From NCBI GenBank assembly GCA_021810905.1, contig JAJZQH010000014.1:76369-123431 (forward strand): 47,063 nucleotides of DNA, in the 5' to 3' direction. Below the pieces are notes generated by a model, which saw only the letters and a program-made list of their open reading frames with translations, was not told the origin of the DNA and searched no databases. The translations under genes were made by a program, and so were the position numbers. This DNA is from a bacterium. Lineage in GTDB: Bacteria; UBA10199; 2-02-FULL-44-16; JAAZCA01. Positions 9,428-32,662 of the stretch are shown here, piece by piece (within the stretch, counting starts at the first letter, position 1; every line of letters begins with the position of its first letter).

Positions 9428-10321
9428 GTGGAGATACACAAGGGCATAGATCGCTACCTCACTCACCTGCGCGTAGAGAAGCAGCTCGCGGCAAATACTC
9501 TGGAAGCGTACGGCCACGATCTGCGCCGCTTTGCCGAGCATCTCGTCTCGAAGGGAATGAACGATCTGGACGGCGTGCAGCAGCAGGATATCCTCGCGTT
9601 TCTCGTCAAATTGCATGAAGCGAAGCTCACCTCGCGCAGCGTCACGCGCAACCTGGTAGCGATACGCGGGCTCTTCCTGCACCTGCTCAAGGATGAGAGG
9701 ATAGATCACGACCCAACCGCCCAGATCGAATTTCCTGGCCGCTGGAAGAAGCTGCCGCACTTTCTTACGCTCACACAGGTGGACGCGCTGCTCGCGGCGC
9801 CGGATCGCCGAACCGTGCTCGGCAAGCGCGATCACGCCATCCTGCAATTATTCTACGCCTCCGGGCTTCGCATCTCCGAGATGAGTTCGCTCACCACCGA
9901 CCGGATAAATCTCCAGCAGGGGTATGTGATGCCGTTCGGCAAGGGCTCCAAGGAGCGAGTCGTTCCGATGGGCAGCCAGGCGATGGCGGCAATCACGGAA
10001 TATCTCGACGAGTCTCGGCCCAAACTGGCGGGCAAGCGCATCTGCGATCGCCTCTTTCTTTCGCAGAGAGGGCAGGGTATCTGCAGGCAGCGGTTGTGGG
10101 AGATCATAAAGGCGTGCGCACGAACCGCGGATATCAAGATAAACGTAACGCCTCATATGCTGCGTCACTCCTTCGCCACCCATCTCATCGAAGGCGGCGC
10201 AGATCTCCGCATCGTGCAGACGATGCTTGGACACGCGGACGTCTCCACCACCGAGATCTACACGCACGTTTCGCGCGCGCACGTGACCCAGATGTACAAG
10301 AAATTTCATCCAAGGGCTTAA
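9428..10321 (+). CDS. xerD: Site-specific tyrosine recombinase, XerC/XerD type
   Basis: The protein is 297 aa, standard for Xer. It resolves chromosome dimers at dif with a partner recombinase and FtsK. The N-terminal SAM-like core-binding domain (about 1-90) is followed by a catalytic domain with Arg in YASGLRISEMSSL, HMLRHSFATHLIEGGADLR (HxxR), LGH, and Tyr in TTEIYTHVS. The start is a GTG with AGAGGA upstream. No second Xer is visible here, and neither dif nor phage genes adjoin, so it looks like a housekeeping recombinase. XerC and XerD cannot be told apart securely by eye. Confidence 0.9.
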   Translation: MEIHKGIDRYLTHLRVEKQLAANTLEAYGHDLRRFAEHLVSKGMNDLDGVQQQDILAFLVKLHEAKLTSRSVTRNLVAIRGLFLHLLKDERIDHDPTAQIEFPGRWKKLPHFLTLTQVDALLAAPDRRTVLGKRDHAILQLFYASGLRISEMSSLTTDRINLQQGYVMPFGKGSKERVVPMGSQAMAAITEYLDESRPKLAGKRICDRLFLSQRGQGICRQRLWEIIKACARTADIKINVTPHMLRHSFATHLIEGGADLRIVQTMLGHADVSTTEIYTHVSRAHVTQMYKKFHPRA

Positions 10322-22357: not shown

Positions 22358-22885
22358 GTGACGGAAAGGACTACCTACTATGATGTGCTAGGCATCACGA
22401 GGACGGCTCCGAGCGAGATCGTCACTGCAGTATATCGCGCATGGATGAAAGCTATGCGCGTTCATCCTGATCTTGGCGGGGATGAAAGTCTTGCGAAGGA
22501 TATCAACGAGGCTTACGAAATCCTGGGCAATCCCGAGAGCAGATCGGCCTATGACGCGGGCCTCGCCCGTGAGCGCGGGACGGAAAACGAAGGTGGGCGC
22601 CGTGCGCCGAGGATCGCCGTGCGTGCGGAGATCGCATATTGCAAACCGTCGGACAGCAGATGGATTCGTGCCGAAACGGTGGATGCGAGCACACTGGGAC
22701 TAAAGATACGATCCAGGGAGATACTGGAGATCGGCAGTCACTTGACGATCGCATTTCCGGGACATCCGTCAGCCGCGATCGAGGCAACCGTGCGATGGTC
22801 TCAAGAGCCCAAGCGAGGCGGTGGTTGTGAATATGGCGTAGAGTTCTTCTCTCCTGTGCCGCACATAATGAAAATGTTGCTGTAA
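22358..22885 (+). CDS. J-domain / PilZ-domain fusion protein
   Basis: The protein is 175 aa from a GTG with GAGGGGAGG upstream. Residues 6-67 form a J-domain (TYYDVLGITRTAPSEIV) with the HPD tripeptide at 36-38 that triggers Hsp70 ATPase, followed by INEAYEILGNPESRSAYD. Residues 80-170 form a PilZ domain with RxxxR (Arg81/Arg85) and DASTLG (DxSxxG, 109-114), the two motifs that grip cyclic-di-GMP; YGVEFFSP fits its last strand. The soluble fusion could link a chaperone to the second messenger. An HD-GYP protein is encoded 1 kb upstream. It is probably co-transcribed with the PP-loop gene. Confidence 0.85.
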   Translation: MTERTTYYDVLGITRTAPSEIVTAVYRAWMKAMRVHPDLGGDESLAKDINEAYEILGNPESRSAYDAGLARERGTENEGGRRAPRIAVRAEIAYCKPSDSRWIRAETVDASTLGLKIRSREILEIGSHLTIAFPGHPSAAIEATVRWSQEPKRGGGCEYGVEFFSPVPHIMKMLL

Positions 22886-22978: not shown

Positions 22979-23055
<77 letters not shown>

Positions 23056-23057
23056 AT

Positions 23058-23085
23058 AAAGGGGTCCCGATTTTGGGACCCCTTT
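23058..23085 (+). terminator. Terminator hairpin after the initiator tRNA, extended into the tRNA
   Basis: AAAGGGGTCCC and GGGACCCCTTT form a perfect 11-bp stem around a GATTTT loop, starting 2 nt after the tRNA CCA. The U-tract is short (TTTGT). Complementarity continues outwards: CCCCCGCTACCAAT (23044-23057, the tRNA 3' end) matches ATTGGTAGCGGGGG (23088-23101), so the full inverted repeat spans 25 bp per arm with a 2-nt bulge. Confidence 0.85.
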
Positions 23086-23124
23086 GTATTGGTAGCGGGG
23101 GTGGGTGAATGAAGCTGCCGGTTC

Positions 23125-23316
23125 GACCTTCCGACAGTATGGTTCATCTAATGCAGAAATCCCGGCGCGTGGGAACTGCGCGCCGGGGGACCTTCCGACA
23201 GAATGGTTCATCTAATGCAGAAATCCCGGCGCGTGGGAACTGCGCGCCGGGGGACCTTCCGACAGAATGGTTTATCTAATGCAGAAATCCCGGCGCGTGG
23301 GAACCGCGCTGCTGGG
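23125..23316. repeat. Three tandem 64-bp hairpin repeats
   Basis: Units start at 23125, 23189 and 23253 with exact 64-bp period. Each starts GACCTTCCGACAG, continues with ATGGTTCATCTAATGCAGAA and ends in a hairpin: CCCGGCGCG, a 9-nt loop TGGGAACTG, CGCGCCGGG. Units 1 and 2 differ at one base. Unit 3 has a C to T change and a decayed right stem arm (CGCGCTGCTGGG). There are no unique spacers between units. It lies between the initiator tRNA and a lipoprotein gene, with no convincing ORF inside. Confidence 0.93.
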
Positions 23317-32557: not shown

Positions 32558-32662
32558 ATGGTCAAGAAACGCAAAGCGAAGAAAGTGGCGAAGAAGAAAA
32601 AGGTCGTGAAGAAGAAGAAGGTCGCAAAGAAAAAGAAGGCAGCGAAGAAGAAGAAGAAGTGA
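32558..32662 (+). CDS. 34-residue Lys-rich microprotein
   Basis: The product is MVKKRKAKKVAKKKK, then repeats of the type VVKKKK, VAKKKK, AAKKKKK: 34 aa, 25 of them Lys or Arg, the rest only Met, Val and Ala. AAAGGAGGGGGAAA directly before the ATG is the strongest ribosome-binding site in the window. A near-consensus promoter and an intrinsic terminator enclose it as a single-gene unit, so it is very probably expressed. The sequence resembles the basic tails of H1-like nucleoid proteins; binding to DNA, RNA or ribosomes is inference. It is too short for most gene finders. Confidence 0.8.
   Translation: MVKKRKAKKVAKKKKVVKKKKVAKKKKAAKKKKK

Follow-up and report, generated by a model that had tools for sequence, protein, structure and literature searches.

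A 64-bp hairpin unit triplicated behind an initiator tRNA gene, a probable mobile palindromic repeat

Results and discussion

The array of three 64-bp units located behind the initiator tRNA gene in the window (the whole analysed stretch of 47,063 nucleotides) probably represents a non-autonomous, REP/RPE-like palindromic repeat, which entered a tRNA-derived palindrome at its apical loop and was then tandemly triplicated. It provides a bacterial case in which target sites are visible both without and with a ~64-bp hairpin unit, loops being preferred, in a genome that is dense in long palindromes and apparently devoid of SbcCD. How small palindromic repeats and perfect long hairpins originate and spread thereby becomes testable, by means of close strains and of a loop-insertion assay in a laboratory host.

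The triplicated array

The array and its surroundings comprise the following features:
22979..23055, + strand: initiator tRNA-Met (CAU), by ARAGORN and Rfam (RF00005, 66.2 bits)
23044..23101, + strand: palindrome centred on the tRNA terminator, 15-bp perfect inverted repeat
23087..23124, + strand: inverted copy of the tRNA 3' end (X') and a linker ending in GCCGGTTC, this end mimicking the 5' half of a T-arm
23125..23188, + strand: unit 1 (reference, 100 %), hairpin at 23161-23187, R1 score 92.3 bits
23189..23252, + strand: unit 2, 98 % identity to unit 1, hairpin at 23225-23251, R1 score 92.2 bits
23253..23316, + strand: unit 3, decayed, 91 % identity to unit 1, 3' arm of the hairpin altered, R1 score 80.2 bits
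23318..23327, + strand: AATCCTGCCC, closing the array, remnant of a directly repeated tRNA-fMet 3' end (T-loop/T-stem side; direct match, score 10)

The tandem array is far beyond chance (Tandem Repeats Finder: 64-bp period, 2.9 copies, 97 % matches, score 349 at 23125-23309), and this program as well as a repeat search bear out the original prediction of three 64-bp units with near-identical units 1 and 2 and a decayed third. The 9-bp perfect stem attributed to each unit (CCCGGCGCG / CGCGCCGGG) is present in units 1 and 2, but lost in unit 3 by alteration of the 3' arm to CGCTGCTGGG. The supposed 9-nt loop contains additional U·G, G·U and G-C pairs, leaving a hairpin with a 12-bp stem and a 3-nt GAA loop. 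The fold of the 192-nt array is 4 s.d. better than those of shuffled sequences (z -3.95), and a search of the window at Rfam gathering scores yielded the tRNA as the single match and no RNA family for the unit. As to the supposed position between a tRNA terminator and a lipoprotein promoter, the terminator hairpin is visible by eye, albeit not listed by the consensus scan, whereas the consensus promoter scan revealed no sigma-70-type promoter for the lipoprotein gene or elsewhere in the array region.

Anatomy of the unit and covariation of its stem

The non-coding unit of ~60-80 bp consists of a left end (GACCTTC) that is invariant across 19 aligned copies, a conserved unpaired stretch similar to TAATGATGAAGT and a terminal GC-rich hairpin. 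A TATAAT-like stretch within the unit was rejected as promoter, since the region lacks a consensus promoter and the spacing to GACCTTC varies. The alignment (A2) comprises 19 diverse copies and is the basis of a second covariance model (R2). The compensatory stem changes that had been proposed as a check were found to be frequent: 33 double-change cells compare to 8.8 in shuffles, and the covariation score of 0.48 to 0.16 in shuffled and at most 0.07 in slid controls. Double changes affect 7 of the 11 stem pairs, with all four Watson-Crick pairs seen at one position, and 92.3 % of the cells in the stem alignment are paired. A U·G wobble pair is conserved in 16 of the 19 copies, and five of the 19 contain tandem G·A in place of two G-C pairs.

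Stems differ between copies within one genome, yet all are fully paired, which would be unusual if the copies derived from a single master element and is in keeping with selection acting on every copy. By template switching, stems can both arise and be repaired in a single step (PMC8794818); since U·G and tandem G·A are kept although such correction should remove mismatches, selection is likely to act on the hairpin fold at some stage.

The exact head-to-tail spacing in the window could also reflect an iteron-like protein-binding array acting on the tRNA or lipoprotein gene. Such a role is most improbable, since every other copy found is single, the window array being the sole tandem case, and since the stem sequence varies freely with pairing kept, arguing against recognition of a double-stranded sequence.

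Distribution of the unit

BLAST with the array retrieved two further single copies from the own genome (G000) and eight from a relative of the same family (G002). The covariance model detected copies outside the array at 8 places in the own genome, 4 in G001 and one each in G003 and G008; with these dispersed copies, refutation by absence from relatives, as envisaged originally, fails. The unit is present in all four sampled genomes of the own family; outside of it, a single copy was found in a different family of the order (G008). Model R2 recovers the same set and found no copy among the remaining 41 genomes of the class. Weak matches of the first model outside the order (G012, G018, G021, G026, G034, G075) were judged to be chance, those within the class vanishing with R2, the search range of which does not include G075. 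A pattern scan of 84,980 species genomes matched only two already known relatives, i.e., metagenome-assembled 'Deltaproteobacteria', and distant BLASTN against phage and plasmid collections gave no match.

Empty and filled insertion sites

For four host sites, both the empty and the filled state are known, with inserts of 64-65 bp and without target duplication:
Family D (L092 empty, L083 filled): GTCGGC/GAGTGGTT becomes GTCGGCT[unit]AGTGGTT
Family A2, one point: GGCGTCTG/AGGCGACG becomes GGCGTCTGC[unit]CGGCGACG
Family A2, another point: GCAGCCGA/GGAGCC becomes GCAGCCGAC[unit]GAGTCGG
Family B (L093 empty, L108 filled): CCCCCATTTT/CGGCATCG becomes CCCCCATTTGT[unit]GGCATCG

In case of family A2, L080 represents the empty state, and L091 and L095 are filled at two different points. 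These pairs demonstrate that the element has moved as one ~64-bp unit without target duplication; since a single unit of this size was inserted, the array period corresponds to the mobile unit. The receiving host repeats are unrelated to one another. Insertion points have a high unpaired probability in D, A2b and two of three A2a copies, whereas that of family B is paired or merely beside an unpaired base. The unit is shown to land mainly within the apical loops or at the helix junctions of other palindromes (clearly so in families D and A2, but not in B) and in tRNA-derived T-arms. MITEs, which have terminal inverted repeats and a target-site duplication, differ from the unit, the ends of which are asymmetric and which produced no target-site duplication in the four empty/filled pairs.

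The pairs also bear on the proposal that the perfect stems belong to a neutral repeat and are kept by template-switch correction only, with neither selection nor mobility. Stems can be created and mended in one step, and locus-specific perfect arms are common in the own genome; however, the conserved U·G mismatch and tandem G·A would be corrected away, the same unit in different hosts is left unexplained, and the empty/filled pairs refute the absence of mobility, rendering this proposal barely credible.

The tRNA-derived host structure

The palindrome behind the tRNA gene reads as tRNA 3' end (23044-23058), terminator hairpin (23059-23086) and reverse complement of the tRNA 3' end (23087-23101), and GGTTC (23120-23124) directly precedes unit 1. 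X' plus linker are arranged in the same way at the tRNA-fMet genes of G008 and G004, and in G000-G003 they follow other tRNAs. Copies of the unit linked to tRNAs were found in G000, G001, G002, G003 and G008 behind fMet, Glu, Arg (two), Asn and Gly genes, in the order tRNA, terminator, inverted 3' end, T-arm half GTTC(GAC) and unit, in most cases followed by a direct copy of the 3' end. The arms flanking these copies match their own partner better than the arms of other loci (permutation, p about 0.002).

At the tRNA-fMet of G004 (L185), a 50-bp direct repeat with 47 of 50 identical positions (T-loop, 3' end, terminator) encloses an inverted piece, demonstrating that this host structure is a real duplication; its slot is filled by another module (S3) instead of the unit. 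G004 displays the fresh form, and the window array is the decayed fMet form of the same structure. By comparison of fMet genes of the order, host structure and unit are absent behind those of G001, G003 and G005-G007. The host site in the window is a degenerate second tRNA-fMet 3' end located behind the terminator, the order being tRNA 3' end, terminator, inverted 3' end, T-arm with the unit, and direct 3' end.

The T-loop slot can also be taken by other small modules, at least two of which (S2, S3) were found. S2 lies in that of a duplicated tRNA-Arg 3' end (L071, 10856-10978) and, in addition, within the anticodon loop of a second, degenerate copy of tRNA-Ala. Such a copy, located downstream of tRNA-Ala in L122, bears a short GC palindrome in its D-loop and further inserts in the anticodon loop and, as module S2, in the T-loop. 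In L088 (14136-14274; G000 C17), S3 adjoins an oppositely oriented unit behind a tRNA.

Among the ideas of the original prediction, a recombination or attachment remnant came nearest, inasmuch as the array lies within a duplicated tRNA 3' end; the unit itself is mobile, with empty and filled sites, and is not an att site. A remnant of a larger integrative element using the tRNA 3' end would agree with duplication of this end across the insert and a boundary in the T-loop. This origin is nevertheless very unlikely, since the duplicated end corresponds in every case to the tRNA at that locus, with several different tRNAs concerned, an inverted copy is also present, and no integrase gene lies beside the scanned copies, with the integron-integrase model giving below-cut-off matches only. 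Moreover, single units reside in non-tRNA repeats, and the empty/filled pairs largely refute it.

The main rival to a mobile repeat, considered rather improbable, is a conserved structured RNA, regulatory or tRNA-associated, that would be tandemly repeated in the window. Cloverleaf-like arms could be formed by the tRNA 3' end and its inverted copy (P1), GAAC/GTTC (P2), a variable arm (P3) and the GC hairpin (P4). The hairpin stem is a covarying secondary structure, as is typical of structured RNAs, and the frequent U·G wobble, the alternative tandem G·A, the invariant GACCTTC, the presence in all four genomes of the family and the slot behind tRNA-fMet in two families of the order likewise speak in favour of this rival. 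However, the unit was precisely inserted into several unrelated repeats, occupies no fixed locus (five of the fMet genes above being without it), and the array lies outside the tRNA transcription unit in a region where no sigma-70-type promoter was found.

Palindromes, SbcD and proposed mechanism

The own genome is rich in interrupted palindromes: 52 with arms of at least 15 bp, including 24 with arms of at least 20 bp, were counted in 820 kb of the 2.98 Mb (L071-L110 and the window), corresponding to 63 per Mb. Four genomes of relatives contained two such palindromes in 800 kb (0-10 per Mb), and a Markov control none. The arms are locus-specific, perfect and up to 33 bp long, and surround several core families (A, B, C, D, E, F). 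A search for SbcD gave matches in 13 of 14 control genomes but none in the own genome and the order relatives. The genomes of this order, which consists of uncultured 'Deltaproteobacteria', seem to be devoid of the customary palindrome-cutting enzyme, and this may explain the tolerance of palindromes.

The mobile-repeat reading would involve the following steps. Host palindromes may arise through two template switches, one at the terminator hairpin and the other at the adjacent T-arm hairpin, the expected product of which is the direct-inverted-direct order (PMC10766186), and could be tolerated as SbcCD seems to be missing. The unit would enter the exposed loop as folded single strand, presumably moved in trans, with Y1/HUH transposases as the nearest candidates present. 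In the window, it would then have been amplified head-to-tail, the tandem state being due to either slippage or repeated insertion. As an extension, one may tentatively speculate that several tiny hairpin-repeat families insert specifically into single-stranded loops of folded DNA or RNA, i.e., T- and anticodon-loop copies of tRNAs and apical loops of other repeats, that palindromes nest, and that SbcCD loss and template switching supply the loops.

Linked genes and relation to known repeats

Y1 transposases are encoded in 8 of the 10 genomes searched, the own genome included, where such genes lie at C9, C6 and C3. No unit was found at the 19-20 Y1_Tnp loci examined in the own genome and relatives (three of the four in G000), and none of these loci comprises a RAYT gene flanked by two inverted copies of the unit. 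No gene family is linked to the copies, the neighbours of which are unrelated housekeeping genes. Lack of a linked gene and of a unit at the examined Y1 genes, the differing yet fully paired stems and the insertion point of family B are counted against the mobile-repeat reading. An integron attC/cassette was rejected, as the genome contains no integron integrase match over cut-off; with model TIGR02249, below-cut-off tyrosine recombinases correspond to two genes in G000. An XerC/D-like tyrosine recombinase gene at 9476-10288 of the window is such a below-cut-off match.

The unit is a short, dispersed, extragenic palindrome and shares with REP/BIME elements and their RAYTs (GTAG families; PMC2817692, PMC3733652) the non-coding nature, a conserved unpaired end, the GC hairpin, occasional clusters and Y1 transposases encoded in the genome. 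It differs by about twice the length, low copy number, insertion into tRNA T-loops and host loops, its absence from the flanks of Y1 genes at the examined loci and the lack of a GTAG-type tetranucleotide at the hairpin foot of all 19 aligned copies, where GAARTS or similar precedes and variable C/G follows. Since it has no REP tag and was not found beside the examined Y1 genes, the unit was not assigned to REP; most likely, its behaviour is that of a REP-class element inserting into loops. Rickettsia palindromic elements and CGTC repeats (PMC3733652) likewise are mobile-looking palindromic repeats without dedicated transposase, but are defined here by a CGTC tag, an 8-9 bp stem and a CCA-like tail, whereas the unit has no CGTC tag at the hairpin, no CCA tail and a different stem (alignment A2). 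Mitochondrial double-hairpin and repetitive hairpin-forming elements (PMC2800124) are also small GC-rich hairpin repeats invading spacers; in those of sponges, stems are conserved and loops vary, whereas in the present unit conservation concerns the single strand and covariation the stem. Other palindromic repeats are also the target of IS1397, IS621 and ISPpu9 (PMC1525189, PMC8450116), which in contrast to the 64-bp non-coding unit are gene-bearing insertion sequences. The tRNA host structures resemble inverted triplications formed by template switching or ODIRA (PMC10766186) in their direct-inverted-direct copies with junctions at short inverted repeats, but involve segments of ~20-50 bp and a bacterium.

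Other features of the window

Just upstream of the tRNA gene (22358-22885), a protein with a DnaJ-like domain followed by a PilZ-like domain was recognized by eye. A further tandem repeat at 32578-32656 has an 18-bp period (GAAGAAGGTCGCGAAGAA) and 4.4 copies.
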